DNA of 64,000 nucleotides from Taklimakanibacter albus (lineage in GTDB: Bacteria; Pseudomonadota; Alphaproteobacteria; Rhizobiales; Aestuariivirgaceae), in NCBI RefSeq assembly GCF_016595235.1, contig NZ_JAENHL010000006.1:1240001-1304000 (forward strand), in the 5' to 3' direction. Positions 17,987-61,275 of the stretch are shown piece by piece (position 1 is the stretch's first letter; every line of letters starts with the position of its first letter). Below the pieces are notes generated by a model. The model had not been told where the DNA came from. It did no database searches and was given only the letters and a program-made list of their open reading frames with translations. Made by a program: the position numbers and the translations under genes.

Positions 17987-18017
17987 AAGCCCGGCTTCAC
18001 CGCCGGGCTTTTTTCTT
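17987..18017 (+). terminator. Rho-independent terminator after the peroxiredoxin gene
   Basis: AAGCCCGGC (17987-17995), loop of six, GCCGGGCTT (18002-18010), then TTTTCTTT. It is a textbook stem with a T tract, 24 bases after the stop. Confidence 0.88.
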
Positions 18018-18029
18018 TGCCCCTCCGCT

Positions 18030-18124
18030 CGTCATGGCCGGGCCTTGACCCGGCCATCCAGTCCCTCCGCCACACAGCTGGTGCATGGATGGGCTGGATG
18101 GCCGCCTCAAGGGCGGCCATGACG
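18030..18124. repeat. Long imperfect inverted repeat with two inner hairpins
   Basis: CGTCATGGCCG (18030-18040) and CGGCCATGACG (18114-18124) are the outer arms. Inside are GGCCGGG-CCTTGA-CCCGGCC and GGCCGCC-TCAA-GGGCGGCC, and a CTGGATGGCC/GGCCATCCAG pair. Such CATGGCCGGG palindromes are common between genes in Rhizobiales genomes and are probably a non-autonomous repeat family. It fills the space between convergent genes. Confidence 0.75.
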
Positions 18125-18138
18125 AAAGGGGAAAGGCC

Positions 18139-18729
18139 CTACGCCAATCTGCGTACCGTCTCTCTAACGCGCTGCAGATGGCTGCGGCGCTGGTCGGGCG
18201 ATGTGCTGTCCATCCGGTAGATCGCGATATATTTCGTCTTGCTCAACGGATGGCAGACGGCCCGGAAGCCGCGCAGCAAGGTGCGCCGCCCTGGCTGGCC
18301 CACGATCCAGGAGAGCCATGGCGTGGCGCCGCATGTGGTGAGCGCCACGACGCGGCGGATATTGGTGAGCTTCGGCAGATGATCGCGCTGAGCCGTCGGC
18401 ATTTCGAAGGCGAAGCCCGGCACCAGCACCCGCTCGAGCCAGCCCTTCAGCATGGCGGGAACATTGAACCACCAGGTCGGATAGATGAAGATCACCGTCT
18501 CGGCCCATAGCAGGTCATCGGCCTGATCGCGGAACGGGTCGAGATTCTTGCCCTCTTCATTGTAGGCCTGAAGATCGGCCATGCTCATCACCGGGTTGAA
18601 GCCGCGGCCATAAAGATCGATGAGCCGCGCCTCGTGCCCGTTCTCGCCCAAGGCCTCGAGCACCGTGTCGCGGATCGCGGCGTTGAAACTTTCAGGATTG
18701 GGATGGCAATAGATGACGAGAACACGCAT
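18139..18729 (-). CDS. NAD(P)H-dependent quinone/FMN oxidoreductase, flavodoxin-like fold
   Basis: A 196-residue protein with the Flavodoxin_2 fold: the N-terminal strand-loop MRVLVIYCHPNPESFNAAI for FMN phosphate binding, and the central VIFIYPTWWFNVPAMLKGW motif typical of MdaB/NQO-type reductases. It would use NAD(P)H to reduce quinones or another electron acceptor. It starts 3 bases after the NTF2-like gene and is the last gene of the operon headed by the ECF S component. This places it in the same transcript as the importer and suggests it may act on the imported compound. Confidence 0.87.
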   Translation of the reverse strand: MRVLVIYCHPNPESFNAAIRDTVLEALGENGHEARLIDLYGRGFNPVMSMADLQAYNEEGKNLDPFRDQADDLLWAETVIFIYPTWWFNVPAMLKGWLERVLVPGFAFEMPTAQRDHLPKLTNIRRVVALTTCGATPWLSWIVGQPGRRTLLRGFRAVCHPLSKTKYIAIYRMDSTSPDQRRSHLQRVRETVRRLA

Positions 18730-18732
18730 GGC

Positions 18733-19179
18733 TCAAACCTTGGCGGCCGCCTTGGTCTTGACGTGGTGATGATCTTCGACTGAGCCGACCGTGTCGAAAT
18801 ATTCCCGCCAGGACAGGATAAGTCCATCCGCATCGAAATCGACGATGATCGCATCCTCGGTGCGGCTTCTCTGGCCGTCCTCGCGCCGCGAAATCTCCCA
18901 CAGCCATTCGAGCGCCATGCGCCGCCCGTCGGGCGAGCAGAAGGCGTTGGTAACGGTAAGGACGAGATCGCCATAATCGCGGTGGAAGTTTTCGATGGTG
19001 CGGGCAAGCTCGGGCTTCGGAATCCGATTGCCGGGCGCCGTCAACACGCCCTCCTCATGCCAGTCCGCCGCAGCCGCTGGTGAGAAATCGCCGGTGAGCC
19101 AGGCTTGGCCCTGACGCCCCAGCATCGCAAGCATTTCGGCATCGCAGCCGGCCTTGGCCTGATCGGTGACGATGATCAT
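18733..19179 (-). CDS. NTF2-like (SnoaL/DUF4440-type) protein
   Basis: A 148-residue alpha+beta barrel protein. The pattern AMLGRQGQAWLTGDF near the N-terminus and MALEWLWEISRREDGQ with VDFDADGLILSWREYFD near the C-terminus is that of the SnoaL/NTF2-like superfamily. Members range from isomerases to ligand-binding proteins. It overlaps the stop of the EcfT gene by four bases (ATGA), so it is translationally tied to the transporter. Its ligand may be the transported compound or a derivative. Confidence 0.75.
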   Translation of the reverse strand: MIIVTDQAKAGCDAEMLAMLGRQGQAWLTGDFSPAAAADWHEEGVLTAPGNRIPKPELARTIENFHRDYGDLVLTVTNAFCSPDGRRMALEWLWEISRREDGQRSRTEDAIIVDFDADGLILSWREYFDTVGSVEDHHHVKTKAAAKV

Positions 19180-20003
19180 AGAACGGAGCCTCCAAATCCA
19201 TAAACGAGCCGCGCCGCCAAAGCGGCCACGGGAGCCAGCAGAAAGACAGCGATCAGCAGCTTCTCGGCGAGCGAAAGCTGTTCACGCGTCGGGTGAAGAT
19301 AGGTACGGTCGCCCGAACCGGTGAAGGCCTTGGCCTGGAGCGCAATCTCCATGAGCTGCGCCTTGCTGAGGCAGATCATGACCAAGGGCACCAGCATGCG
19401 CGCCATGGCGATGAGCTTGCGCACGAGACCGAGGCTGTCGATGTCGACGCCACGCAGGCGCTGCGCTTCCTTGATGCCCTCCATTTCCTCGAACAGCAGC
19501 GGCACGAAGCGGAAGGTGGTGGAGAACAGGAAGGCGACCCGATATGGCACGCCGATGCGCGCCAGGCCGAGTACGATGTCGCGTGGATCGCTGGTCATGA
19601 AAACGAGCTGGAAGGCGAGCATCGGGATCAGCAGCCGACAGCAGACCGCGAGCCCGAACAGCAAGCCCTCGACATAGAAAATATGCCAGCCGCCGACCCA
19701 TGGCACGCTGTCGGGCACGGTGACGACCGGCGTCACCCCGAACGGGCTCCACAGGCCCTGGATCACCGCGATCATGATCAAGGCCGGCGACAGGATGAGG
19801 ATAAGCCGGCGGATCGTGGCGGCAGGCACCCGTGCGGCCAGCATCAGCGCCAGCATGAGGACGAGCACCAGCGCCTGGAGCAGCAGGTTGTTCCAGATGA
19901 AGATGATGGTGCTCGCCATGACGAGCAGCGCGAACTTCACCCGCATGTCGAGATGGGCGACCGCCGTATCGTTCGAAACACGCTGCAGGAAGGCTGTCGT
20001 CAT
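19176..20003 (-). CDS. ECF transporter transmembrane component EcfT
   Basis: A 275-residue CbiQ/EcfT-family membrane protein with about six segments. The coupling region carries the ARIGVPYRVAFLF stretch and the two Ala-Arg-Gly-type short motifs are represented by EAQRLRGVDID. It links the fused ATPase to the substrate-binding S component. Gene overlaps on both sides (ATGA with the ATPase at 20000-20003 and with the NTF2-like gene) show a tight operon. Confidence 0.87.
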   Translation of the reverse strand: MTTAFLQRVSNDTAVAHLDMRVKFALLVMASTIIFIWNNLLLQALVLVLMLALMLAARVPAATIRRLILILSPALIMIAVIQGLWSPFGVTPVVTVPDSVPWVGGWHIFYVEGLLFGLAVCCRLLIPMLAFQLVFMTSDPRDIVLGLARIGVPYRVAFLFSTTFRFVPLLFEEMEGIKEAQRLRGVDIDSLGLVRKLIAMARMLVPLVMICLSKAQLMEIALQAKAFTGSGDRTYLHPTREQLSLAEKLLIAVFLLAPVAALAARLVYGFGGSVL

Positions 20004-21772
20004 ACCGGCACCTCCGGCGCCAAGCCGAGCCGCTCGGCGAGATCGCGTGGGCCCAGGGGATGAAGATCCAGCAAGGCCGGCACCGCTTCAGCGAAACGCA
20101 CCGTCTGCGGCGGGATGATCGCCGCCTCTTTCAACCGGTCGCTTTCATAGAAGACCTGGCGCAACGGGCCGTCGAGCACCACCTTGCCGCCATTCATGAT
20201 GACCAGGCGCTCGGTGAAGCCGGGCAGCAGATAGAGATGGTGGGTGACCAGCACGACTGTCTTGCCCATGCCGTTCAGCGTCTTCAGCGTGTCGAGAATG
20301 GCGAGCGAGCCGCGCCAGTCCTGGCCGGTCGTCGGCTCGTCGAAGATCAGGATCTGCGGCTCGAGCGCCAGCACGGCGGCGATGGCGACGCGTAAGCGAT
20401 CGCCGCGGCTCAGCGAGATCGGATGACGATCCGCCGCCCAGGCGAGGTCCATCAGCGCCAGCGACTTTTCCACTGCCGCATCGATCTCTGGCTTCGGACG
20501 TCTCATCATCGACAGCGCGAAGCCCACCTCGCCCGCGACCGTGTCGGAAAAGATCTGCTGATGCGCGTTCTGCGAAACATAACCGATGCGCCGCGCCATA
20601 TCGCTGACCTTCATGGCGGCGATATCCTCGCCCATCACCCTGACCGTGCCGCTGGTCGGCGCCATGAGCTTCAGGAAATGCCGCACCAGCGTGGTCTTGC
20701 CGCTGCCATTGCGCCCCAGGATGCCGACGAACTCCCCCTGCCCGATGGCGAGATCGATGCCCCGCAACGCCTGGGTGCCATCGGGATAGGTATAAGTGAG
20801 CTTGTCGACCGAGAGCGCCGCCGCTCCAGCCTTATCTTCGCGCGCCTCATGCGATGGTCCGGCCGGAATTTCGAGATCCGGCAGTGCTGAAACCGCCGCC
20901 ATCGCCGCCGGCAAGGTGATCGGCAGCGCCGTAGTGTCGTTCCAGCCGGCATGGCGGCGCAGCACGTCGAAGCTCTGGGTGATGTCTGGCGGTCGCACCC
21001 GGTGCTCGCGCAGCATCGCGGAGGCGGAGAAGACCTCGCTCGGTGGCCCCTCGGCAGCGATGCGCCCGTCGGCGACGAGCAGGATGCGGTCGGCGATCTG
21101 CGCCAGCTCCTCGCTCGCATGGGTGGCGATGACCACCGTGGTACGGCTCTCGCGCTTGAGCCTCAGCAGGATGGCAAAGATGTCTTCGGAAGCGGCCGGA
21201 TCGAGCTGTGAGGTCGGCTCGTCGAGCACGATGATGTCGGGCGCCAGCGCCAGAGCCGATGCTATGGAAAGGCGCTGCTTCTGGCCGCCCGACAAGTTGG
21301 CCGGATGCTTCGTTTCGTATCCTGTCAGTCCCACCATCGCGAGCGCATCGCGCACGCGGCGGCTGATCTCCGGCGTAGGGACTTTCAGGTTCTCGAGCGC
21401 GAAAGCCACTTCGCTTTCGACCGTCGTCGCGGTGATCTGGGTTTCGGGATCCTCGAACACCATGCCGACCAGATGGGCCAGCCGGCTGGTCGGCGTATCG
21501 ATCGTGTCGAGGCCGGCCACCGCCACCGTGCCGAAGAACGTGCCGCTGAAGAATTGCGGCACGATCCCGTTGAGAGCCAGGCAGAAGGTGGACTTGCCGG
21601 CCCCGGTCGGTCCGATGATGCCGATGATCTCGCCGCGATCGATGGTGAGATCGATATTCTTGAGCACCTGGCGGTCGCTGCCCGGATAGGCGTAGCTGAC
21701 CTTCTCGAAACGGATGAGAGGTGCGTCAGCCAGGCCAGGCGTGGCCGCCAGATTGCCCATATGCATGTTCAA
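20000..21772 (-). CDS. Fused double ATPase of ECF transporter (EcfA-EcfA')
   Basis: A 590-residue protein with two ABC ATPase domains in tandem. Domain 1 (about 20-260) has Walker A GPTGAGKST at 54-62, signature LSGGQKQRLSI and Walker B IIVLDEPTSQLD. Domain 2 (about 320-560) has Walker A GRNGSGKTT, a degenerate signature LSRGDRLRVAI in place of LSGGQ, and ILIFDEPTTGQD. Group-specific ECF modules usually carry two separate or fused ATPases, so the fusion is normal. The altered second signature suggests unequal ATP sites. It powers uptake together with EcfT and the S component. Confidence 0.9.
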   Translation of the reverse strand: MNMHMGNLAATPGLADAPLIRFEKVSYAYPGSDRQVLKNIDLTIDRGEIIGIIGPTGAGKSTFCLALNGIVPQFFSGTFFGTVAVAGLDTIDTPTSRLAHLVGMVFEDPETQITATTVESEVAFALENLKVPTPEISRRVRDALAMVGLTGYETKHPANLSGGQKQRLSIASALALAPDIIVLDEPTSQLDPAASEDIFAILLRLKRESRTTVVIATHASEELAQIADRILLVADGRIAAEGPPSEVFSASAMLREHRVRPPDITQSFDVLRRHAGWNDTTALPITLPAAMAAVSALPDLEIPAGPSHEAREDKAGAAALSVDKLTYTYPDGTQALRGIDLAIGQGEFVGILGRNGSGKTTLVRHFLKLMAPTSGTVRVMGEDIAAMKVSDMARRIGYVSQNAHQQIFSDTVAGEVGFALSMMRRPKPEIDAAVEKSLALMDLAWAADRHPISLSRGDRLRVAIAAVLALEPQILIFDEPTTGQDWRGSLAILDTLKTLNGMGKTVVLVTHHLYLLPGFTERLVIMNGGKVVLDGPLRQVFYESDRLKEAAIIPPQTVRFAEAVPALLDLHPLGPRDLAERLGLAPEVPV

Positions 21773-21773
21773 C

Positions 21774-22550
21774 TCAGTAACCCGCGAGCTTCGCTTTGGC
21801 GATGGGCGAGCGGCGGATGGCGGCCAAGAGACCGAAGCCGATGAGCGCCCCCACCGCCGAGAAGGCGATGCGTTCGACCGCGATGATGAAGATCAGCGCC
21901 GGCCAGACTTCCGCGGGCCACGGATTGGTGGCGAAGGCCGGTACCCAGTTGAGCTGAATACCCGCCGTCGAACCGAAGAAGAACACCACATAAAGCGCCA
22001 CATAGAGCTTCCAGCTCCTGACGCCTTCGCGGATGGTCGCGATCGCCCAGTTGCGGATCTGCGGAATGGCGATGAGGATGAGGCCCAGATCGACGGTGAA
22101 GACGTTGCTCAGCCACAGCGGGAAGCTGATGCCGAAGGTGAGCGACTGATAGAGATAGACGAGATGGGCGACGAGCGTGATGATCCACGGTATGAACCAG
22201 TAGGAGCGGCCCGGATACATGACCATGCCGACCGTGAAGGCGCACATGCTGCCGATCAACACGCCCCAGGGGCCGAGATTGGTATAGGGCGCGATGACAT
22301 TGCCGATGACCGTGCCGATCAGCGAGGCGATAGGACCGGCGATAGGCCCGAGCAGCAGGCCGACCACCGGATGGATCACGTCATGGAGCGGCCAGCCGCC
22401 GGCCATGCCGCCGACGACGATCGAGGCCGGCACCAGGGCCATGACGGCCACCAGGGCTGCGAGAATGGCCGTGTAGGAAACCGGCGCGCCACCGATAGAG
22501 ACGCCCCCGCCTCCTCCGACAGTACGTGACTGCGTAGAATTGTCCGTCAT
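21774..22550 (-). CDS. ECF transporter substrate-binding S component, ligand unknown
   Basis: A 258-residue membrane protein with about six segments, starting after a Gly-rich N-terminal tail (residues about 10-22). VVGLLLGPIAGPIASLIGTV and the following NLGPWGVLIGSM resemble S components, where small residues pack against EcfT. It is the first gene of the operon S, A-A', T, NTF2-like, reductase (22550 to 18139), whose joints are overlaps or gaps of at most three bases. I cannot assign it to a known vitamin class. The divergent TetR gene and the heterocycle-type enzymes beyond it suggest a nitrogen heterocycle. Confidence 0.78.
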   Translation of the reverse strand: MTDNSTQSRTVGGGGGVSIGGAPVSYTAILAALVAVMALVPASIVVGGMAGGWPLHDVIHPVVGLLLGPIAGPIASLIGTVIGNVIAPYTNLGPWGVLIGSMCAFTVGMVMYPGRSYWFIPWIITLVAHLVYLYQSLTFGISFPLWLSNVFTVDLGLILIAIPQIRNWAIATIREGVRSWKLYVALYVVFFFGSTAGIQLNWVPAFATNPWPAEVWPALIFIIAVERIAFSAVGALIGFGLLAAIRRSPIAKAKLAGY

Positions 22551-22674
22551 TTTGCTCCTCCCCAGGATGCTCTGACCGATATGTTCTAATGGCGCTGCTT
22601 GTTAGGGTCCGTTTTCCGGCTATGAACCGGAGCGCGGGATTCATGGCGCCAAAGGTGATGATAAGCAATCTGAG

Positions 22675-22693
22675 CAATCGGTCAAACTGTTTG
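22675..22693. promoter_or_regulatory. 19-bp dyad between ECF operon and tetR
   Basis: CAATCGGTCAAACTGTTTG, with six of nine symmetric pairs. It is part of a 31-base block (22672-22702) that matches 27426-27456 at 27 positions, in the same orientation. The GGTCAA half is also the half-site of the known RutR operator. It lies 125 bases before the S-component start and 144 before the tetR start. It is the probable TetR-family operator. Confidence 0.6.
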
Positions 22694-22836
22694 TTTGGTT
22701 TTTCTCAGGATTTTTGCTAGAGGGTGAGACCGGCATGGCCGGGTTGCGCGAAATACTCGCTTCTGGCTGAATTTTGAGCATGTCATGTGCTAGGAATACT
22801 ATGCAGTCGCGATTCAAATCTGCAGCAAGGGGGAAA

Positions 22837-23478
22837 ATGGCGGCGCCTGAGAAGAAGAATGGCCGAGAGCGCATGCTCGATCGCCGCAAGAAGATCCGCG
22901 AAGCCATTCGCCAGGCGGCCATCGACGAATTCGCCCAGAAGGGTCTGGCCGGCGCTTCCACCCAATCCATCGCGCAGCGCGCCGGGCTCACCAAGCCGCA
23001 GCTCCATTATTACATCTCGAGCAAGGAAGAGCTTTACGAAGAAGTGCTCGTCCACATCAACGATCTGTGGCGCGACATCTTCATCGCCTCCTCCGGCGAC
23101 ACCAAGGATCCGGCCAAGGTCATCCGCGACTATGTGCGCAACAAGCTCGAATTCGGCCGCCGCCATCCCAATGCCTCGCGCGTCTTCTCCAACGAGGTCG
23201 CCGCCGGTGGCCATTACTTGCAGAAGCACTGGCACAGTGCACGCGAGTCGACTCAGGTGGCCGCCGAGATCATCCAGTCCTGGGTCGACAAGAAGCTGAT
23301 CAAGCCGGTCGATCCCTGGCTGTTCCAGATGCATATCTGGGCGGTGACCCAGCATTACGCCGATTACGAAGCGCAGATCCGTTTCATGCTGCAATTGAAG
23401 GACGGCGAGGAAATCGACATGGACCATGTCGTCGACGAGGTCTCGACCCTCTTCCTGCGCGCTTGTGGGCTGAAGTAG
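22837..23478 (+). CDS. TetR-family regulator, RutR-like
   Basis: A 213-residue regulator. The N-terminal TetR HTH is at residues about 14-60 (IREAIRQAAIDEFAQKGL, STQSIAQRAGLTKPQLHYY). The C-terminal domain has the RutR-like pattern HPNASRVFSNEVAAGG and WAVTQHYADYEAQIRF. ATG 22837 follows AAGGGGG and gives the usual RutR length; earlier in-frame ATGs at 22774 and 22801 lack such a site. RutR senses pyrimidines in E. coli. Here the neighbours are an ECF importer and a heterocycle-type catabolic operon, so the ligand may be pyrimidine-like. This is inference. Confidence 0.87.
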   Translation: MAAPEKKNGRERMLDRRKKIREAIRQAAIDEFAQKGLAGASTQSIAQRAGLTKPQLHYYISSKEELYEEVLVHINDLWRDIFIASSGDTKDPAKVIRDYVRNKLEFGRRHPNASRVFSNEVAAGGHYLQKHWHSARESTQVAAEIIQSWVDKKLIKPVDPWLFQMHIWAVTQHYADYEAQIRFMLQLKDGEEIDMDHVVDEVSTLFLRACGLK

Positions 23479-23487
23479 CTTCAACTA

Positions 23488-23517
23488 TCCCTCCCCACGC
23501 TTCGCGCGGCGGAGGGA
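23488..23517. terminator. Weak hairpin between convergent tetR and ferredoxin genes
   Basis: TCCCTCC (23488-23494) pairs with GGAGGGA (23511-23517) around a GC-rich loop, ten bases after the tetR stop. There is no T tract, so its role as a terminator is uncertain. Confidence 0.35.
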
Positions 23518-23546
23518 GATTGGCGGGGCAATTAGCTAAGAGCTCT

Positions 23547-23867
23547 TCACACCTGCCTCATCGGCAATCGCACCGTCAGCCCATCGAGTTCGGGCGAGAT
23601 CCTGATCTGGCAGGCAAGCCGCGAATTGGGCGCGACTTCATAGGCCATGTCCAGCATATCGCTTTCCATCGCATTGGCCTCGCCCACTTTCTCCCGCCAT
23701 TGCGGCTCGACATAGACATGGCAGGTGGCGCAGGAGCAGGCGCCGCCGCACTCCGCCTCGATGCCGGCGACGCCATTGCGCACCGCCGTTTCCATGAGGC
23801 TCGCGCCTTCCGCCGCCGCGACTTCGAGCGCCTGTCCCTCGCGCGTGATGAAGGTCACCTGGATCAT
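23547..23867 (-). CDS. [2Fe-2S] ferredoxin, adrenodoxin type, of the heterocycle-type operon
   Basis: A 106-residue ferredoxin with ligands C40-x5-C46-x2-C49 and C86 (CGGACSCATC, SRLACQI). Adrenodoxin-type ferredoxins usually feed Rieske oxygenases or cytochrome P450s. It is the last gene of the operon creatininase, amidohydrolase, FAD oxidase, ferredoxin, and overlaps the FAD oxidase stop by four bases. The likely reductase partner is encoded at 27478-28713. No oxygenase lies in the cluster, so the ferredoxin may instead exchange electrons with the FAD-linked oxidase. Confidence 0.9.
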   Translation of the reverse strand: MIQVTFITREGQALEVAAAEGASLMETAVRNGVAGIEAECGGACSCATCHVYVEPQWREKVGEANAMESDMLDMAYEVAPNSRLACQIRISPELDGLTVRLPMRQV

Positions 23868-25234
23868 GGCCGCGCCGCCATGTCGCTCGTCCAGCCTTGC
23901 GTCTTGCCAGGATTCATCAGCCCGTAAGGATCAGCTCTTTTCTTGAACTCGATCTGCGAACGGTCGATCTGCTTCATGCCGCCCTCTTCGATCGTAAAGA
24001 CATGCGGATCGTAGATGGTGCAGCCGTCGATCTCCTCGAATTCGCGGATCATCCGGTACATCGCATCCCTGCCCCGGTACTTCACCAAGGGCAGGCCGAA
24101 GATCTGCACCTCGCCCTCGAGCCGCGCCATTTCGTGATGCATATAGACGTCATCGCCGTAACGGCGCATCTGACGCAGCACGAGCTCGGGATCGAAGGGC
24201 CTGGGATATGCCACCTGCAGATAGGTCCAGCTCTTGTCGGCCTTGAGCGCCTGCAGGGTCGTGTGGTTCCAGCCGCATTCATAAGCGGGCTGCAGGCCGG
24301 CCGCGACCAGCTCGGGTTTCGGCATGGCGAAGGAAATCTTGCCCCCATGCGCCGCGGCCAAAGCCTCGAAACGCGGCATCTCCTTCGGCGCCACCATCGC
24401 GAACACACCGTCGCGATCGGCCGGGAAGAGCGGACCATATTTGCTGTAGAAACGTGCGAAGCGACGCTCGACCGGCGTCAGCAGATAGCAGTCGAGCCCC
24501 TCATGCTGCGCCTCCACGGCGAAGCGCAGCGCCCGGTCATAACCCTCGAAGAGCGCGGCAGTATGAATCCAGTCCGTCGCCGGCGTCAGCGCCACATCGA
24601 TTTCGAGAATGATGCCATTGGTGCCATAGGCGTGCTGGACTTTCTGGATATCCGGCCCGTGCAGCTCGATGATCTGCGGCTCGGGCTCGACCGACATCAC
24701 CTTCACATAGCCGACATTGCCGTCATCGCGCAGCATGCCGTGGCGCAACGAGCCGACACCGCCCGAGCCGCCCGACAGGAAGCCGCCGATCGTGGCGATG
24801 CGCCGGGTCGAGGGATACATCAGAAGCTCCTGCCCGCCTTCGCGCGCCGCATCGTCGAGCCGCGCGATGCGCGCACCCGCTTCCACCCGGGCGCGGCCGG
24901 GCTCAAGCGTCAGGATGCGGTCGATCTTGGTGACATCGAGGATGATTCCGCCTTGCAGCGGCACACACTGACCGTAATTGCCGGTACCGCCGCCGCGCAC
25001 CGTGAGCGGCACCTTGTGCCGGGCGGCGGCGGAAGCGACGCGGCGCACTTCGTCCTGGTCCGTGGGCAGCACCACGAGATCGCCGACCCGGCCTTCGAGC
25101 GCCTGGCTGAGGATCGGGCTGTACCAGAAATAATCTCGCGACTTGAGCTCGACCTGCTTGGGATCGTCATAGACGCGGATGCCTTCGATTTCCCGGCGAA
25201 AGGCGGCGAGATCGTAAGCGCGCTTCTCGGTCAT
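23864..25234 (-). CDS. FAD-binding oxidoreductase, FAD_binding_4 (VAO/GlcD-like) family
   Basis: A 456-residue flavoenzyme. The PP-loop FAD domain spans residues about 50-225 (VRGGGTGNYGQCVPL, ARVEAGARIARLD, IGGFLSGGSGGVGSLRHG, YGTNGIILEIDVAL). I see no clear covalent His-FAD motif. VAO-family enzymes oxidise hydroxy acids, alcohols or ring C-H/C-N bonds. ATG 25234 overlaps the amidohydrolase stop (ATGA); the longer frame reads back into that gene. The ferredoxin gene follows with another ATGA overlap, hinting that the two proteins work together. Confidence 0.82.
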   Translation of the reverse strand: MTEKRAYDLAAFRREIEGIRVYDDPKQVELKSRDYFWYSPILSQALEGRVGDLVVLPTDQDEVRRVASAAARHKVPLTVRGGGTGNYGQCVPLQGGIILDVTKIDRILTLEPGRARVEAGARIARLDDAAREGGQELLMYPSTRRIATIGGFLSGGSGGVGSLRHGMLRDDGNVGYVKVMSVEPEPQIIELHGPDIQKVQHAYGTNGIILEIDVALTPATDWIHTAALFEGYDRALRFAVEAQHEGLDCYLLTPVERRFARFYSKYGPLFPADRDGVFAMVAPKEMPRFEALAAAHGGKISFAMPKPELVAAGLQPAYECGWNHTTLQALKADKSWTYLQVAYPRPFDPELVLRQMRRYGDDVYMHHEMARLEGEVQIFGLPLVKYRGRDAMYRMIREFEEIDGCTIYDPHVFTIEEGGMKQIDRSQIEFKKRADPYGLMNPGKTQGWTSDMAARP

Positions 25235-26424
25235 GCGGGCCTCCGGCGCTGCCGGCCCTGCCCGAGCTTGCGGCCATTGCGATAGACGATGCGCTCGGCA
25301 TTGGGCCGGCTGACCAGATCGTTCAGGTCGGCGGCGTCGAACCAGATGAAGTCGGCGCGCTGCCCGACCGCGACGGGAGCCATCGGCGAGCCGCACTGCG
25401 CCGCCGGCTTTGTCGTGATGCTGTCGAGCCAGTCACGCGGATCGACATGGCAGGCAAGCACCGCGAGCCTCAGGATCGCCAGTGGATCGTAATCGCCGAA
25501 GGGATAGAAGGCGTCGCGGCAATTGTCGACGCCGAGCAGAACCTCGACACCGGCCTTGCGCGCCTCGAGCACCGGCGCAACGCCGCGCCGGCGCGGCGAG
25601 CGCCCTCCATTGCGGTCCTGCAGATAGAGATTGGTCGTCGGCAGCGCCACCAGAGCGACGCCGGCCTCGGCGCCCGCCGCCAGCGTACGGGTTAGCCTGT
25701 CGTCGTCATGGAGCGACAGCGAGCAGCCATGGCCGCACAAAACGCGCCCCGACATGCCGGCGCGTTTGGTCGCCGCGATGATTTCGGAGAAGCCGTCGGC
25801 TTCGATATCGAGCCCTTCATCGACGTGGAAGTCGAGCGCCAGGTCATGCCGGCGCGCCAGCTTGAAGGCGACATCGACTTTGCTCGGCAGATCGGCATTG
25901 CGATAGAAGAAGGCACCGAACACGCCTTTGTCGCGACGCACCCTCTCGGCGATGCGCTCGCCACCCTCGGGAAGGAGATCGGCGGGTGCCAGGGCCGCCA
26001 GCTGCAGCTCGATGCGGCCTCTCCACTCGTGCTTCAGCTCATTGAGCACCGGCCAGGCGATCGGCGCTTCGGGCTCGGGCCAGTCGACATGGCTGCGCAG
26101 CACCCGGACACCATTGAGATAGGCCGCTTCAAGGGCACGGCCAGCGCGGTTGCGGATATCGTCGACCGTCCATTGCCGCATATCCTCTTCCATGAGCGCG
26201 ATGGCGTCGAAGAGGCCGTTCACCGGACCATTCAGCCGATCGACCGTATAGGTCTTGTCGAGATGCACATGCGCATCCGCGAAAAGCGGCGTCACCAGCC
26301 CGCCATCGCCACCGGAAGACGGCGTGATCGCCGCGATGCGCCCGTCCGCGACGGCGATATCGACACGCTCGGGCGCCCCGGCGACAGTTACGGCTTCGAG
26401 CTCGAAACGGTCCATTTGGGTCAC
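25231..26424 (-). CDS. Cytosine deaminase-like amidohydrolase
   Basis: A 397-residue metal-dependent hydrolase. The cytosine deaminase pattern is complete: HVHLDKT near residue 52 (two metal His), DFHVDEGLD (metal His and catalytic Glu, near 197), LCGHGCSLS near 229 and GVDNCRDAFYPFGDYDP (metal Asp, near 300). These enzymes deaminate cytosine, isoguanine, creatinine or related rings, or open them. The start overlaps the creatininase stop by four bases. Substrate is unknown; the operon context suggests a ring with an amidine or amide bond. Confidence 0.85.
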   Translation of the reverse strand: MTQMDRFELEAVTVAGAPERVDIAVADGRIAAITPSSGGDGGLVTPLFADAHVHLDKTYTVDRLNGPVNGLFDAIALMEEDMRQWTVDDIRNRAGRALEAAYLNGVRVLRSHVDWPEPEAPIAWPVLNELKHEWRGRIELQLAALAPADLLPEGGERIAERVRRDKGVFGAFFYRNADLPSKVDVAFKLARRHDLALDFHVDEGLDIEADGFSEIIAATKRAGMSGRVLCGHGCSLSLHDDDRLTRTLAAGAEAGVALVALPTTNLYLQDRNGGRSPRRRGVAPVLEARKAGVEVLLGVDNCRDAFYPFGDYDPLAILRLAVLACHVDPRDWLDSITTKPAAQCGSPMAPVAVGQRADFIWFDAADLNDLVSRPNAERIVYRNGRKLGQGRQRRRPA

Positions 26425-27221
26425 CAGCCGGGCTGATTGTCGAGCCAGGCGAGCGGCGCCCGCTCAATCTCTTCGAGCGCCGCGGCGATCCGCAGGGCGG
26501 CGAAATCGACAGTCTGCCGGCCCTTGTCGAAGCTCGCCGCCGACGCGTCGCCACAGGCGCCTTCCGGATGGAGATCCTGCGACTGCCAGCCGGGCTTGGC
26601 GCCGCCCGACAGGCTGATATGGCGATAGTCACGCTCGAATTCCTCCGTAAGCGGATGGAAATTCTTCGCCTTGTCCATGTTCACGAGTATCGGATGGAGC
26701 GCCAGCATCACCGAGGTCTCCATGTCGCCGGCATGGACGCCATGCTTGAGCTCATGATCGCCATAGAGACCGTCCGGCATGCCGAGGCCGAACCAGTTGA
26801 GGGAGAAGGCCAGCATATGGTGCCGGCGGCGCAGCTCGCGCGCCACGATGTCCATGATGGCGATCTGGCCGCCATGGCTGTTGAGCATGACGAATTTGCG
26901 CACCCCGCTATGGGCGACCGAGGCGCCGATCTCGGTCCACATGCGGATCAGCGTTTCGGCCGAAAAAGTGAGTGTGCCGGGAAAGCGCAAATGCTCGTCG
27001 CTCTTGCCGATCGGCATGGTGGGCAGGAACAGAACCTGGCTGCTGTCGGAGAGCTTTTCTGCCACCGCCGCGACGATGCCGGAGATGATGGCGGCGTCGA
27101 CCGACAGCGGCAGATGCGGCCCATGCTGTTCGGTGGCGCCAACCGGGAGCACGGCGACGATCCGGCTGCGGTCGAGCTTCGAGAACTCCTCGCTCGAATA
27201 ATCCGACCAGTAGCGCTTCAC
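26421..27221 (-). CDS. Creatininase-family amidohydrolase
   Basis: A 266-residue protein with the creatininase metal site: VLPVGATEQHGPHLPLSVDA near residue 27 (Glu, His, Asp), NSHGGQIAIMD near 120 and HAGDMETSVML with a further Glu. The family opens cyclic amides (creatinine) or removes formyl groups. I start it at GTG 27221, with AGGAGAGG four bases before; an ATG frame to 27293 would run into the tandem repeats. It is the first gene of a four-gene operon of overlapping reading frames running to 23547. It probably performs a ring-opening step. Confidence 0.87.
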   Translation of the reverse strand: MKRYWSDYSSEEFSKLDRSRIVAVLPVGATEQHGPHLPLSVDAAIISGIVAAVAEKLSDSSQVLFLPTMPIGKSDEHLRFPGTLTFSAETLIRMWTEIGASVAHSGVRKFVMLNSHGGQIAIMDIVARELRRRHHMLAFSLNWFGLGMPDGLYGDHELKHGVHAGDMETSVMLALHPILVNMDKAKNFHPLTEEFERDYRHISLSGGAKPGWQSQDLHPEGACGDASAASFDKGRQTVDFAALRIAAALEEIERAPLAWLDNQPGW

Positions 27222-27241
27222 CTTGCCTCTCCTAGGCTGAT

Positions 27242-27367
27242 AGAGCATCGGACCGAAAAATGCGTAGCGGTTTTCGGAGAATCCGATGCGCAAAATGACG
27301 AGTTAGAGCATCGGACCGAAACAAGCGTGGCGGTTTTCGGACATTCCGATGCGCAAAATAACGAGAC
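27242..27367. repeat. Two tandem 63-bp hairpin repeats
   Basis: Units 27242-27304 and 27305-27367 both begin AGAGCATCGGACCGAAA and end CAAAATNACGAG. Each folds through GCATCGGA/TCCGATGC with the inner CGAAAA..TTTTCG core seen in the other hairpin repeats of this window. A third copy seems to begin at 27368. They occupy the divergent region between the creatininase and the ferredoxin reductase. Confidence 0.8.
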
Positions 27368-27428
27368 AGAGTGCGGTAATGGCTTCATGAGAACGTCCGC
27401 CCTTGACCTCGTCTCTAACATATCAGAG

Positions 27429-27447
27429 CAAATGGTCAAACTATTTG
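27429..27447. promoter_or_regulatory. 19-bp dyad upstream of ferredoxin reductase-ridA operon
   Basis: CAAATGGTCAAACTATTTG has seven of nine symmetric pairs and is the better of the two copies (the other is at 22675-22693). It ends 30 bases before the reductase ATG, where a repressor would block transcription. It is also within 210 bases of the divergent creatininase operon start. Confidence 0.6.
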
Positions 27448-27477
27448 TTTTGTTTTCTTAGGGACTATGCCACCGTC

Positions 27478-28713
27478 ATGACCATGCAAGAGCACTGCAT
27501 CATTATCGGCGCCGGCCATGGCGGCGTGCAAGCCGCCGCGAGCCTGCGCCAGGAAGCCTATCAGGGCCGCATCACCCTGGTGAGCGACGAGCCCGATCTG
27601 CCCTACCACAAGCCGCCACTGTCCAAAGGGTTCCTCAAGGCGCCTGAGGCGCCGGTGCTCGAATTGCGCAATGAAGCATTCTATCGCGACAACCGCATCG
27701 ACCTCATGAGGGGAGCGCGTGTGACGGCGATCGAGCCCGCCTCGAGGACCGTCAGCCTCGCCGACGGCGGCAAGCTCGCTTACACGAATCTGATCCTGGC
27801 GACGGGTTCGCGGCCGCGCCTGCCGGAGCTCGACGGCGTCACGCTCGACGGCGTGCTGAGTCTCAGAAGCCTCGCCGATGCGCGCCGCCTCAATGAGGGG
27901 CTCAGCGGACCGAAGCGCATCGCCATCATCGGCGGCGGCTTTATCGGCCTCGAGCTTGCCCACACGCTGGCTGGTCTCGGCCATGCCGTCACACTCATCG
28001 AAGCCGTGCCGCGCCTCCTCGCCCGTTCGGTTGCGCCCGCCATGGCGAACCATATCCAGACCCGCTCGGCAGAGGCCGGTATCGACTTTCATGTCGGCGC
28101 CCGGATCTCACATATCGTAGGGGTCAACGGCAAGGTGGACGCGATCAAGCTCGCCGACGGTGCAAACTTCCCGGCCGATCTCGTGATCCTCGGCACCGGC
28201 GCTCTCCCCAATGTCGAGCTTGCAGCCGAGGCTGGTCTCGTCGTCAACAACGGCATCGAGGTCGACGCCTTTCTGCGCTGCTCCGATCCGGCGATCCTCG
28301 CCATCGGTGACTGCACCAACTTCCACCAGGTCCATGCCGGCCAGCGGCTCCGGCTCGAATGTGTGCAGAATGCCACCGACCAGGGACGCAACGCCGCCAA
28401 GACAATCGTCGGCAAGCCGGAAGCCTATCGCGAATTGCCCTGGTTCTGGTCGGATCAGGGCGACATGAAATTGCAGACCGCTGGTCTCAGTCTGGGCGCC
28501 GACCACACCATCACCACCGGTGCGCTGCAAGACAATGCCTTCGCCATCCACCACTTCCGCGCTGGCAAGCTCATCGCGGTCGACACGATCAACCGCCCGG
28601 CCGAACACATGCTGGCGCGCCGCCTGATCGGCACCCGCGCCACACCGACCCTTGCGGATGTGCAGGCGGGGCCCCAGCGGCTCAAGGAAATGCTCAAAGA
28701 GGCTGCCCAATGA
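27478..28713 (+). CDS. NAD(P)H-ferredoxin/rubredoxin reductase (FAD-dependent, with Reductase_C domain)
   Basis: A 411-residue flavoprotein. FAD Rossmann motif IIIGAGHGGVQAAASLRQE near the N-terminus, DLPYHKPPLSKGFL next, NAD motif IIGGGFIGLELAHTLAGLGH near 148, ILAIGDCTNF near 275 and a C-terminal Reductase_C domain (WFWSDQGDMKLQTAG). This class reduces [2Fe-2S] ferredoxins for oxygenases and P450s. Its natural partner here is the ferredoxin encoded at 23547. Starts at 27478 or 27484 are both possible; the longer frame from 27403 would cover the dyad. RidA follows by ATGA overlap. Confidence 0.9.
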   Translation: MTMQEHCIIIGAGHGGVQAAASLRQEAYQGRITLVSDEPDLPYHKPPLSKGFLKAPEAPVLELRNEAFYRDNRIDLMRGARVTAIEPASRTVSLADGGKLAYTNLILATGSRPRLPELDGVTLDGVLSLRSLADARRLNEGLSGPKRIAIIGGGFIGLELAHTLAGLGHAVTLIEAVPRLLARSVAPAMANHIQTRSAEAGIDFHVGARISHIVGVNGKVDAIKLADGANFPADLVILGTGALPNVELAAEAGLVVNNGIEVDAFLRCSDPAILAIGDCTNFHQVHAGQRLRLECVQNATDQGRNAAKTIVGKPEAYRELPWFWSDQGDMKLQTAGLSLGADHTITTGALQDNAFAIHHFRAGKLIAVDTINRPAEHMLARRLIGTRATPTLADVQAGPQRLKEMLKEAAQ

Positions 28714-29114
28714 CACTTCATCATCTCGTGCCCGCGACGATCCGCAAGCCCTTCGCCAAATACAGCCATGGCGTGCGGGTCGAAGCGCCGAGCGACCTGA
28801 TCTTCTGCTCGGGCCAGCTCGGCATCGGGCCGGACGACACCATCCCGGAAGATGCTGCCGCTCAGGCGGAGCTGTGCTTCGCCAATATCGCGGCGATCCT
28901 GGCGGATGGCGGCATGAGCCTCGCCGATGTCGTGCGCATCAACGCCTATGTCACCGACCGCGGCTTTATGGCCGCCTATATGAGCGTGCGCGACCGGCTG
29001 TTTCCCGCCCCCTCGCCCGCCTCGACCTTGATGATCGTGGGGGGATTCACGCGTGCGGTATTCAAGATCGAAATCGAGGTCGTCGCAGCTAGAAGCTCAG
29101 ACCGTGTCGCCTAA
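28710..29114 (+). CDS. RidA-family (YjgF/YER057c) imine deaminase-like protein
   Basis: A 134-residue protein of the RidA family. The marks are LIFCSGQLGIGPDD, CFANIAAILADGGMSLADVVRINAYVTD and the C-terminal AVFKIEIEVVAA. The usual catalytic Arg of RidA proper (in the R-x-C/A-V segment) corresponds to FTRAVFKIEIE. RidA members hydrolyse reactive imines and enamines. Coupled by an ATGA overlap to the ferredoxin reductase, it may clear an imine made by the oxidase or deaminase of this pathway. Its 3' end overlaps the convergent sulfotransferase gene by 18 bases. Confidence 0.88.
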   Translation: MTLHHLVPATIRKPFAKYSHGVRVEAPSDLIFCSGQLGIGPDDTIPEDAAAQAELCFANIAAILADGGMSLADVVRINAYVTDRGFMAAYMSVRDRLFPAPSPASTLMIVGGFTRAVFKIEIEVVAARSSDRVA

Positions 29115-53366: not shown

Positions 53367-53441
53367 TGGTGAGCCCGGATGGGTTCGAACCATCGACCCT
53401 CTGATTAAAAGTCAGATGCTCTACCACTGAGCTACGGGCCC
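53367..53441 (-). tRNA. tRNA-Lys (anticodon TTT)
   Basis: Minus strand: acceptor GGGCCCG pairs with CGGGCTC (one G-U), D arm GCTC/GAGC, anticodon stem TCTGA/TCAGA with loop CTTTTAA (anticodon TTT), T arm GATGG-TTCGAAC-CCATC, discriminator A and encoded CCA (53367-53369). All four arms are complete. Confidence 0.96.
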
Positions 53442-56716: not shown

Positions 56717-57910
56717 CTAGGCCTTCGCCAGGAAGCCTTCGGCCATCCGGCTGAACTGGCCCGCCGCGATCACCAGGAGATCGTCATTGAAGTCGTAATC
56801 GGGCGTATGCAGCATCTTGCGTTCCGGTCCGTCGCCATTGCCGAGCATGAAATAGCAGCCGGGCCGCGCTTCCAGCATGTAAGCGAAGTCTTCCGAGATC
56901 ATGGTCGGCGCCGGAAGGTCGATGATCGGGTGATCACCTTGGAGCTCAGCCGCGACGGCGCGGGCGAAGGCCGTCTCGTCCGCCGTATTGATGGTGGCCG
57001 GATAGCCCATCTCATAATCGATCGCGGCTCTGCAGCCATGCGCCTCGGCGACGCCTTTGACGATCGCCTGGATACGCTCGGCCAGGAGCTTGCGCACCGG
57101 GGGCGAGCAGCTGCGCACGCTGATTTCGAGCTTGGCGCTTTCGGGAATGACGTTGCAGGCGGTGCCGGCATTGAAGGTGCCGACGGTTACCACCGCGGGC
57201 TCGGTCGGATCGACATTGCGCGCCACGATCGTCTGCAGCGCCGTCACCACCGCCGCGGCCGCGACGATCGGATCGGCGCTTTTATGCGGCAGCGCGCCAT
57301 GGCCGCCGGGACCGGAGATGATCACGATCGGCGTGTCGACCGCCGCCATGATGGTGCCGGGACGGACGGCGAATTGTCCGAGCGGCATGCCCGGCCAATT
57401 GTGGAAGGCGAAGACCGCATCGCAGGGGAAGCGCTTGAACAGCCCATCCTCGATCATGCGCTGGGCGCCGCCGATATTCTCTTCGGCCGGCTGGAAGATC
57501 AGATGCACGGTGCCGTCGAAATTGCGCGTCTCGGCGAGATAGCGCGCCGCGCCGAGCAGCACCGTGGTGTGGCCGTCATGGCCGCAGGCATGCATCTTGC
57601 CGGCCGTCTTGCTGGCATAAGCGAGCCCGGTGGTCTCGTTGATGGGCAGCGCATCCATGTCGGCACGCAGGCCGATGCTCTTGCGGCCATGGCCTGACGA
57701 CAGCGTGCCGACGACACCGGTGCCGCCGAGGCCTTGGGTCACTTGAAAGCCGAGCCGGTCGAGCTCGCGCGCCACGATCTCGGACGTGCGCTTTTCCTCG
57801 AAGGCGAGCTCCGGATATTGATGCAGATCGTGCCGGATGGCGCGCAGTTCACCGGCATGGGCGGTGAGGCGATCATGGGCGGTAGAAGACGTCACAGTCA
57901 CGGTTCCCAC
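56717..57910 (-). CDS. M20-family amidohydrolase (hippurate/N-acyl-amino-acid hydrolase type)
   Basis: A 397-residue metallopeptidase-fold amidohydrolase. GLRADMDALPINE near residue 81, the metal-binding HACGHDGHTTVLLG near 107, QPAEENIGGAQRMIEDG near 140 (catalytic Glu) and a late EDFAYMLEARPG match the M20D subfamily, which cleaves hippurate, N-acetyl amino acids or indole-3-acetyl-amino-acid conjugates. It lies 120 bases after the ABC importer and in its direction, and may act on the imported compound. Confidence 0.88.
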   Translation of the reverse strand: MGTVTVTSSTAHDRLTAHAGELRAIRHDLHQYPELAFEEKRTSEIVARELDRLGFQVTQGLGGTGVVGTLSSGHGRKSIGLRADMDALPINETTGLAYASKTAGKMHACGHDGHTTVLLGAARYLAETRNFDGTVHLIFQPAEENIGGAQRMIEDGLFKRFPCDAVFAFHNWPGMPLGQFAVRPGTIMAAVDTPIVIISGPGGHGALPHKSADPIVAAAAVVTALQTIVARNVDPTEPAVVTVGTFNAGTACNVIPESAKLEISVRSCSPPVRKLLAERIQAIVKGVAEAHGCRAAIDYEMGYPATINTADETAFARAVAAELQGDHPIIDLPAPTMISEDFAYMLEARPGCYFMLGNGDGPERKMLHTPDYDFNDDLLVIAAGQFSRMAEGFLAKA

Positions 57911-58030
57911 GGATTGAAAGCAGTTGGCCTGCTTTAGAGCATCGCCGCCGATAGCGCGACCGGAAACGACGCAAAGCTACGATTCCGGTTAATGAATCCG
58001 GCACATGCCATTGAATTCAATTGGATATTC

Positions 58031-58720
58031 TTACCGCCGCTGCGGCACTTGGCGCTCGATGAAATTGAACAGCCGGGTGATGCAATAGGTCAACGCCAGA
58101 TAGATGACCGCCACCATGAGCAGAGGCTCATAAACGCGATAGGTATCCTGGCGGATCTGATAGGAGGCACCATAGAGCTCGATCACGGTCACCGTCGCCG
58201 CCAGGGGGGTCGCCTTAAGCTGCAGGATCGTTTCGCCACCGAGCGTCGGCAGGACGATGCGGAAAGCCCTCGGCAGCCAGATGCGCCTGAGCACGGTCCA
58301 GGGCGACATGCCGAAGGCACGCGCCGCCTCCAGCTCACCTTTGGGCACGCTCAGGAACGCTCCTTTCATGATGGCGCCTTCATAGCCCGCGAAACTCAGA
58401 GTGAAGGCCAGGGCCGCATAGAAGAAGCCCTCACGCAGCACCGGCCACATGAAGCTGTCGCGGATCCCCGGTATCTGCGGAAAGAACGAGCCGAGCCCAT
58501 AATAGAGCAACCACAATTGCACGAGGAGCGGCGTGCCGCGGATGACGGTACAGAAGCCCGAAGCCATCCATTTGAGCCAGCGCGGACCGGTCACCTGCAC
58601 GAGCCCGATCGGTACGGCGAGCAGGAAACCAATGAAGATCGAGATAACGAGAAGCGCCAGGGTAAGTCCGATGCCCTCGATGATCATCGGCAGATATTTG
58701 GGGAACCAGGAGAAATCCAT
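58031..58720 (-). CDS. ABC transporter permease, polar amino acid type (HisM-like)
   Basis: A 229-residue membrane protein with about five helices. The HAAT permease signature with the EAA loop is EAARAFGMSPWTVLRRIWLPRA near residue 131, and LAVPIGLVQVTGP near 34 is the upstream part. It forms a heterodimer with the adjacent permease gene (9 bases away). Ligand unknown; the family moves amino acids, opines and related compounds. Confidence 0.9.
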   Translation of the reverse strand: MDFSWFPKYLPMIIEGIGLTLALLVISIFIGFLLAVPIGLVQVTGPRWLKWMASGFCTVIRGTPLLVQLWLLYYGLGSFFPQIPGIRDSFMWPVLREGFFYAALAFTLSFAGYEGAIMKGAFLSVPKGELEAARAFGMSPWTVLRRIWLPRAFRIVLPTLGGETILQLKATPLAATVTVIELYGASYQIRQDTYRVYEPLLMVAVIYLALTYCITRLFNFIERQVPQRR

Positions 58721-58729
58721 GCCCGCCCC

Positions 58730-59440: not shown

Positions 59441-59502
59441 GAAAGCGCCGAGTGATTATTGGGGAACGGGCTGCACCGGCGAACCGGCGCAGCCCCTGCA
59501 TA

Positions 59503-60294: not shown

Positions 60295-60425
60295 CGTCTT
60301 CTCTCCCTAGTATGGATCATTCGATCCGGTTTTTGTGAAAGCCCAGGCGCTCCGTTCGGATGCGCCGTCAAACTAAAGCACGTCGTCGAAAGGTTGCAAA
60401 CGGGTCCGAAAGTTGCAGAGACAAT

Positions 60426-61211: not shown

Positions 61212-61275
61212 CCCTTAACGTTCCCGTGTTCTGTTTCTTGTTGAGTAAAAGCTTATCACGCAATTAAAAATTTGG

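Follow-up and report, generated by a model that had tools for sequence, protein, structure and literature searches.

An ECF importer joined to a widespread catabolic module: a probable uptake-plus-catabolism regulon for a nitrogen heterocycle in Taklimakanibacter albus

Introduction

ECF importers are known as scavengers of vitamins, and the dedicated ECF vitamin transporters, termed group I, are represented among others by the riboflavin S family PF07155. Among catabolic systems, the closest known are the Rut pathway of pyrimidine breakdown, with its regulator RutR and the RidA-family protein RutC, and the alphaproteobacterial enzyme clusters served by NMT1-type ABC importers, whose binding proteins have many ligands. 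The DNA analysed here (the window) is a 64,000-nucleotide stretch of the T. albus genome, in which one interval had been singled out as a possible undescribed uptake and catabolic system. The comparisons reported below suggest that this interval probably serves, as a single regulon, both the uptake and the catabolism of a nitrogen heterocycle, and that it is a variant of the known module with an ECF importer in place of the NMT1-type ABC importer.

Gene content and edges of the block

The interval 18139-29114 contains twelve intact genes (Table 1), including every gene named in the original prediction, whose count of eleven becomes twelve with the TetR gene. Likely starts were preferred to the longest open reading frames, the start being a prediction and the length computed from it; the creatininase start appears likely because it fits the length of relatives and follows a ribosome-binding-like sequence, and the 5' extension of this frame enters a tandem repeat.

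Table 1. Features of the block, with strand and supporting matches
Feature	Position	Strand	Support
Flavodoxin-fold NAD(P)H oxidoreductase (Flavodoxin_2), last gene of ECF operon	18139..18729	-	PF02525 3.5e-36
NTF2-like (SnoaL_2) protein	18733..19179	-	PF12680 27.4 bits, cut-off 27
EcfT transmembrane component	19176..20003	-	PF02361 1.6e-28
Fused EcfA-A' ATPase	20000..21772	-	Two ABC_tran stretches; TIGR04520, TIGR04521 above cut-off
S (substrate-binding) component	21774..22550	-	PF07155 27.5 bits, cut-off 26.7
Operator-like site 1	22675..22693	+	EcfS/TetR divergent promoter region; overlaps TTGACC-16-TATCAT promoter-like site for EcfS
TetR regulator, RutR-like C-terminal domain	22837..23478	+	PF08362 9.3e-33; likely start, 213 aa; longest ORF from 22774
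2Fe-2S ferredoxin	23547..23867	-	PF00111
FAD oxidase/oxygenase (FAD_binding_4 family)	23864..25234	-	PF01565 8e-27; likely start, 456 aa
Cytosine-deaminase-like amidohydrolase, changed base pocket	25231..26424	-	PF07969
Creatininase-family cyclic-amide hydrolase	26421..27221	-	PF02633 2.9e-72; likely start, 266 aa
63-bp repeat, two tandem copies	27241..27366		Between operator-like site 2 and creatininase start
Operator-like site 2	27429..27447	+	Creatininase/ferredoxin-reductase divergent promoter region
Ferredoxin reductase	27478..28713	+	PF07992, PF14759; likely start, 411 aa
RidA-type imine deaminase	28710..29114	+	PF01042

The edges of the block, at about 18015 and about 29106, are presence/absence edges relative to the congeners G002 and G004, which lack it at the homologous site; these edges, together with the operator-like sequence common to both halves, make the block more than a chance neighbourhood. 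Base composition gives no clue to its origin, the G+C of the block being similar to that of the right flank. A third congener, G003, has the ferredoxin reductase alone at this site, so this gene may be a resident one.

The ECF cassette

The predicted ECF importer is present, with S, fused A-A' and T adjacent on one strand in one gene run, as in group I transporters, and matching PF07155, TIGR04520/TIGR04521 and PF02361, respectively. The S component lies just above the PF07155 cut-off, in a match that spans residues 24-114 only; the same family was matched by 8/8 aligned S proteins, other families giving a single match at E 0.71, and the score against the folate-family ECF S model TIGR04518 stays below the cut-off (16.8 bits against 60). 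The AlphaFold model of S was unusable (pLDDT 39). As clues to the substrate, riboswitches were sought in the window and in six ECF loci, and the only Rfam match at the gathering score was a tRNA of the window, hence no TPP riboswitch either.

The ECF cassettes of six other genomes all include the NTF2-like protein and the flavodoxin-fold reductase (60-66% identity to the window copy), the latter also resembling, at 46-54%, the copy that ends two ABC-type clusters. The SnoaL protein of the loci L072/L073, considered as an ortholog of the window NTF2-like protein, gave no match to it.

ABC-served relatives and importer replacement

The enzyme core of the block is a widespread alphaproteobacterial module, normally accompanied by an NMT1-type ABC importer, in which a creatininase-family hydrolase, RidA, a cytosine-deaminase-like amidohydrolase, an FAD oxidase and a flavodoxin-fold reductase recur. 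Homologs of the oxidase (E up to 1e-60) occur in 141 of the 397 sampled genomes of the order, and the ECF S component in five. Searching 58 oxidase-bearing loci by tblastn, the ABC binding protein was detected in 52, the deaminase in 50, the flavodoxin-fold reductase in 48, the creatininase-family hydrolase and RidA in 44 each, the ferredoxin in 4, the ferredoxin reductase in 3 and the ECF S in none; these loci were picked by hand for holding the oxidase, include some close relatives and some short stretches, and comprise 45 from the 141 oxidase-positive genomes of the order (two of these loci from G123), one from a genome of the class, four from ECF-bearing genomes and eight from plasmids. 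Counts based on open reading frames were lower than the tblastn counts used here. The original prediction held that no described pathway is known to have this combination, which does not stand for the enzymes, and that pairing them with an ECF importer is unusual, which the rarity of the S component bears out; the co-occurrence search that it proposed finds an importer together with the enzymes in most of the 58 loci, and ECF S in none of them. What is rare is the ECF pairing, the enzyme set itself not being unique, and among the papers listed in literature searches none is, judged by title and opening of the abstract, about this gene combination.

The comparison with modules such as those of Nitratireductor sp. 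OM-1 plasmid pOM-1 (L043) and Rhizobium CB782 (L078) shows a common enzyme core, to which L043-L045 add the ferredoxin and ferredoxin reductase, and L043-L047 a TetR gene and an operator-like site before the creatininase gene. In general, the plasmid clusters combine creatininase-family, amidohydrolase, FAD and TetR genes with an ABC importer, and in part RidA, ferredoxin and ferredoxin reductase. Identities to the window proteins reach 69-76% for FAD oxidase orthologs on nine plasmids, 47-60% for the TetR of five plasmid clusters, 53-58% for the ferredoxins of L043-L045, 49-62% for seven RidA proteins of related clusters and 55% for the ferredoxin reductase of L043, whose gene also diverges from that of the creatininase. 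The difference lies in the importer, a three-gene ABC system with binding protein in the modules (NMT1 family assigned by Pfam for L072 and by homology for the other loci) and the ECF S-AA'-T, NTF2 and flavodoxin genes in the window. Neither the binding protein nor the permease of the module has a match within the window, where the enzymes are nevertheless clustered as in the module, and the best matches to the binding protein in the whole genome are 24-25% identical, none being close.

The ECF cassettes found elsewhere are also related to the ABC modules, through a LysR type 37-43% like that of ten ABC-module loci (the LysR beside modules L071 and L085 is only 22-27% like it) and through the flavodoxin enzyme, 46-56% like the ABC-module copies. 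All ten distinct genomes found with ECF S have an oxidase homolog (42-44% in eight), a co-occurrence that is statistically weak because they represent about three lineages, and four of the six ECF-cassette genomes have a separate ABC module. Judged from these gene comparisons, the ECF importer appears to have replaced the ABC importer in the window block.

Operator-like sites and the regulon

The 19-bp operator-like sequence CAAWYGGTCAAACTRTTTG occurs in two exact copies, one in each divergent promoter region (Table 1). Of a longer 22-bp form, with two mismatches allowed, the 7.17-Mb genome has two copies, each within the block, and it has no match to the reversed-pattern control of this form. 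The motif was recognised by eye in the window and in L044, where the identical 19 bases precede the creatininase gene, and was then sought in L043, L045, L046, L047 and L081, being present in four of the five and absent from L081, a genome relative; hence, the five plasmid clusters examined, of nine, all have it before creatininase (2, 0, 0, 0 and 3 mismatches). The other loci (1.01 Mb) gave 4 matches at up to 4 mismatches, and the promoter scan did no better than chance (2 sites found, 2.0 expected).

This common site, the presence/absence block and the clustering of enzymes with importer in most of the 58 loci argue for one regulated unit of import and breakdown, in line with the original prediction. 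The alternative, an ordinary riboflavin- or folate-type vitamin importer beside an unrelated catabolic operon, would fit the six genomes in which the cassette lacks catabolic enzymes in the flanks examined and the weak riboflavin-family match of S, and it is nonetheless quite improbable, given the rare site by which the window importer, unlike group I transporters, is tied to catabolic rather than salvage genes, the lack of a close ABC binding protein in the genome, the ties to ABC modules through the LysR and flavodoxin proteins, the block that is present or absent as a whole in congeners (the G003 reductase apart) and the missing riboswitch.

Likeness to the Rut system includes the RutR-like TetR, the RidA-family protein and a TGGTCAA half-site at operator-like site 2; with a sequence that we take to be the RutR site, the window has 7 matches at three mismatches against 0.9 expected, both operator regions included. 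The predicted RutR-like character holds as a resemblance in the PF08362 domain and does not extend to membership, the TetR scoring 139.4 bits against RutR model TIGR03613 (cut-off 368). The Rut pathway was dropped; RidA reaches 28.3 bits against RutC model TIGR03610 (cut-off 169) and family scans gave no RutA or RutB match among the twelve genes.

Catabolic enzymes and proposed route

Two enzyme names of the original prediction, creatininase and cytosine deaminase, are valid as family resemblances only. The creatininase-family protein scores 93.7 bits against the creatininase model TIGR04448 (cut-off 235), and true creatinine degradation was rejected on this ground and for want of a creatinase match among the twelve genes. 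The amidohydrolase gives 350.5 against the cytosine deaminase model PRK07583, below the cut-off of 403 that the L048 (692) and L072 (637) proteins pass. Under the CodA numbering and pocket roles that we assume, the metal ligands H61, H63, H214, E217, H246 and D313 are kept in 12/12 aligned rows, whereas F154, Q156, D314 and W319 of the base pocket are replaced by L, a residue other than Q, N and F in 12/12, window included.

The nearest solved structure to the FAD enzyme is 6v42/6v43 (E 1.8e-119), a full-length homolog named FAD/FMN-containing dehydrogenase and presumably a flavin oxygenase of folate catabolism; this sequence kinship would be the tie of the window enzyme to folate catabolism. 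6v42 is closer still to the L048 ABC-module oxidase (E 1.2e-212). In a tree that does not include 6v42, the window enzyme groups with six relatives in a clade of its own, which has strong support, sits on a long branch and is apart from L048; long branches meet beside this clade. The papers matching the strings 6V42/6V43 were unrelated by title, and the AlphaFold model of the FAD enzyme was unusable (pLDDT 38), a fold search with it giving nothing at E < 0.001.

For repressor binding and for the order and chemistry of the steps, we infer the following scheme. The TetR protein would repress from its two operator copies, before the ECF operon and before the creatininase-amidohydrolase-FAD oxidase-ferredoxin operon, and would let go of both on binding the substrate or an early intermediate. 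Substrate capture would fall to the S component, with EcfAA'T powering import; the amidohydrolase would take off a ring amino group, and the FAD enzyme oxidise or oxygenate the ring, its electrons passing via ferredoxin and ferredoxin reductase, the flavodoxin-fold reductase, or both. The creatininase-family enzyme would then open the cyclic amide, and RidA hydrolyse the resulting imine.

A bolder version, offered tentatively and with more doubt than belief, has the ECF system displace the ABC one and bring in fuel for a catabolic regulon as its dedicated transporter. The ring would be degraded along a route so far undescribed, with a ferredoxin/ferredoxin-reductase chain as electron partner of the VAO-fold flavoenzyme in place of NAD(P)H or O2 alone. 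The ferredoxin and its reductase may instead be passengers serving a P450 or Rieske oxygenase elsewhere, since such pairs usually feed oxygenases, both are rare in the 58 loci and the reductase stands alone in G003; this is unlikely, as the ferredoxin gene lies directly 3' of the FAD gene both here and in the distant L085, and no P450 or Rieske motif, by the patterns that we assumed for them, was detected in window ORFs of at least 80 aa.

If the regulon reading is right, ECF transporters would be open to recruitment for catabolism, where they could trade places with ABC importers of the same substrate. With importers of two kinds for an apparently single substrate, a common operator-like site and a non-cytosine pocket, the heterocycle pathway would also come with a short, testable ligand list, in a module of the reach described above.

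Substrate

The S match to the riboflavin family, the 8-oxoguanine-deaminase type present in 15/58 loci, the non-cytosine pocket and the 6v42 kinship point to a 2-amino-4-oxopyrimidine edge in the most likely substrate, which would be a pteridine (folate or pterin) in the first place and an oxidised guanine in the second. Should our assignment of 6v42 to folate catabolism be correct, the block would supply the import step for the breakdown of folate or pterin in bacteria. The window M20 peptidase has no match in the 58 loci, which thus show by this measure no sign of a folate-cleaving carboxypeptidase.

An oxidised or modified purine or pyrimidine base (8-oxoguanine, isocytosine-like or FAPy-type), used as nitrogen source, is the rather unlikely alternative to a pteridine. 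The 15 loci with an 8-oxoguanine-type deaminase argue for it, as do three L071/L072 deaminases that pass the PRK08203 cut-off, the RutR-like regulator, the urea carboxylase and allophanate hydrolase that adjoin the module in L078 and L074, and a BmpA-type binding protein in 5/58 loci. The L072 deaminase and its window homolog resemble 3hpa and 7ww2 more closely than 2paj, and since we take 3hpa to be an 8-oxoguanine deaminase and 2paj a pterin deaminase, this favours a purine over a pterin. Against such a base stand the 43 loci without this deaminase type, the riboflavin-type match of S, the presumed folate role of 6v42 and the position of the window homolog, about 32 kb off and shared with two of three congeners, the module-less G003 and G004.

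A thiamin-type pyrimidine (HMP or a formyl or aminomethyl relative), degraded rather than salvaged, is very improbable, with the breadth of NMT1-type ligands, the absence of a TPP riboswitch in the window and six ECF loci and the lack of an obvious role for 8-oxoguanine-type deaminases all against it. In its favour, the L048 ABC binding protein has four structure matches, three of which are THI5 or the formyl-aminomethyl-methylpyrimidine binding protein; the best, 4nmy, bears a name that gives no ligand. The changed CodA D314 is a further point, as a change there affects C5 specificity according to the part of PMC6186785 that concerns Asp315.

Urate, caffeine and cytokinin pathways were considered on general grounds and dropped. 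The 8-oxoguanine deaminase at 61.3-62.6 kb was rejected as a regulon member, having no operator-like copy and being present in the module-less G003 and G004; one of the seven RutR-site-like matches with three mismatches lies just behind it, at 61264-61279.

Organization of the locus and its occurrence in the genus

The block is a real import-and-breakdown locus and, as judged by sequence comparison, a version, new in its importer, of a widespread alphaproteobacterial catabolic module (creatininase-family protein, RidA, cytosine-deaminase-like amidohydrolase, FAD oxidase and flavodoxin-fold reductase, usually with an NMT1-type ABC importer), of which no published description was found in the literature searched by title and abstract start. 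The gene calls and operon picture of the original prediction are correct: twelve genes, all intact, lie in the runs as drawn, four start codons being reassigned on the basis of the sequence and the lengths of relatives. The first minus-strand run, with overlaps in part, encodes a flavodoxin-fold oxidoreductase, an NTF2-like protein, EcfT, a fused EcfA-A′ and the S component; the second encodes ferredoxin, FAD enzyme, amidohydrolase and creatininase-family hydrolase. The TetR gene is on the plus strand between the two, and ferredoxin reductase and RidA, also on the plus strand, end the block.

Within the genus the block is either present or missing as a unit: the congener G001 has all of it, and G002 and G004 have no counterpart at the same site, where the flanking peroxiredoxin and TPR-sulfotransferase genes adjoin each other. 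In a further congener, G003, the sole block gene at the site is a ferredoxin reductase (77-78% identity), so both a gain of the block beside a resident reductase and a deletion remnant stand. The S component turned up in 2 of 100 relatives (this genome and G001) and in 5 of 397 genomes of the order.

Coordinates of features in the window and in related loci
Feature	Position	Strand	Remark
Block under study	18139-29114		
Segment without counterpart in G002 and G004	18015-29106		
Two tandem 63-bp repeat copies	27241-27366		89% alike
tRNA gene	53370-53441	-	no other Rfam match in the window reaches the gathering score
Separate putative operon	56717-62613	-	
Lone ferredoxin reductase, G003	L141 12734-13996		
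Similar repeat copies, G003	L141 14022-14108		after ferredoxin reductase
Similar repeat copy, locus L142	L142 19497-19549		

The catabolic module and its importers

The enzyme combination had been thought undescribed, but its catabolic half is not new, since it recurs on plasmids and in a sample of 58 loci selected for presence of the FAD enzyme. Orthologs of this enzyme (69-76%) occur on nine plasmids, five of which were examined and carry it with a creatininase-family gene, amidohydrolase, TetR and an ABC importer, RidA, ferredoxin and ferredoxin reductase being present in part of these clusters. FAD enzymes this close are rare in genomes: among 385 genomes of the class, only the window's own and G728 passed E 1e-130, and the wider family, at about 44%, extends to 141 of the 397 genomes sampled in the order. 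In a 60-row tree, the enzyme of the window groups with six relatives in a single clade (support 100/100).

In the 58 loci, ABC importer genes are frequent (ATPase 53, permease 52, binding protein 52), as are deaminase (50), flavodoxin-fold reductase (48), creatininase-family protein (44) and RidA (44); the 8-oxoguanine-deaminase type occurs in 15, MarR, LysR and TetR regulators in 17, 12 and 5, ferredoxin in 4 and ferredoxin reductase in 3. Oxidase, creatininase-family protein, deaminase, RidA and binding protein are all present in 35 of the 58, and EcfS and EcfT in none. Two diverged FAD oxidases, possibly a second pathway branch, lie close to ABC importer genes in each of five loci (L075, L092, L093, L096 and L120).

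A LysR-S-AA′-T-NTF2-flavodoxin cassette, without catabolic enzymes in the fetched flanks, occurs in four Mesorhizobium records, Kaistia soli and L010; in a small control, the flanks of such cassettes (L005-L010) gave no oxidase, amidohydrolase or creatininase match in 6 of 6. The cassette LysR shares 37-43% identity with ten LysR of ABC-module loci, versus only 22-27% with two other module-adjacent ones, and the cassette flavodoxin enzyme 46-56% with its counterpart in ABC modules. An oxidase homolog is present in all ten distinct ECF-S genomes (two reached under two handles with identical coordinates, counted once), which represent about three lineages, eight having the 42-44% type only. Among the six outside the window's genus, four have oxidase and creatininase 4.7-4.9 kb apart, one has them at a distance of about 10 kb and one has them on separate contigs; at least one Mesorhizobium carries both the ECF and the ABC importer. 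Judged from these comparisons, the ECF half belongs with the catabolic half. For the ABC binding protein of the module, a search of the window's genome gave only distant matches (best 24-25%), so the ECF importer seems to have taken the place of the ABC importer in this lineage.

Operator-like sequence

The sequence CAAWYGGTCAAACTRTTTG stands once in each of the two divergent promoter regions, EcfS/TetR and creatininase/ferredoxin reductase, and its 22-bp form, allowing up to 2 mismatches, has no genome copy outside these two sites; the locus thus looks like one regulon. The EcfS/TetR copy overlaps a promoter-like sequence for EcfS, in a promoter scan whose total was no higher than chance. The operator-like sequence also lies 54-185 bp ahead of creatininase in the plasmid clusters L043-L047, and is absent from L081, a genome relative. 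The 63-bp repeats between the second site and creatininase have similar copies elsewhere, and may represent a dispersed repeat associated with rearrangement at the locus.

Chemistry and substrate

The amidohydrolase keeps the CodA metal site, and four of four tested CodA base-pocket positions are changed in 12 of 12 sequences, which makes deamination likely and cytosine an unlikely substrate; PMC6186785 links specificity at C5 to the residue at D314 (numbered Asp315 in that paper). The creatininase-family protein falls below the creatininase model cut-off. The nearest solved structure to the FAD enzyme is 6v42/6v43, presumably a flavin oxygenase that acts in folate catabolism. Pterin deaminase is one folate-breakdown route in a soil Variovorax according to PMC9513972, a paper in which neither creatininase nor transporter nor gene cluster appears as a term. 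The binding protein of the ABC-module locus L048 best matches 4nmy, with THI5 and a formyl-aminopyrimidine binding protein next in rank. A pteridine would be slightly favoured as substrate; a purine stays alive because the 8-oxoguanine-type deaminase of another ABC-module locus, L072, is nearest to 3hpa, which we take to be 8-oxoguanine deaminase, and 7ww2, and less near to 2paj, presumably pterin deaminase.

Near the ABC module, two Rhizobium-type loci (L078 and L074) carry urea carboxylase, allophanate hydrolase and two 'cysteine hydrolases', the latter 32-34% like an isochorismatase-family protein of L094; these neighbours hint at urea- or biuret-like nitrogen as a product. Elsewhere in the window, the separate putative operon comprises an M20-family amidohydrolase, a polar-amino-acid-type ABC importer (two permease-like ORFs, an SBP_bac_3 binding protein and an ATPase) and an 8-oxoguanine deaminase (PRK08203, 660 bits against a cut-off of 532), which is 71% identical to the module-adjacent deaminase of L072 and is also present in G001, G003 and G004.
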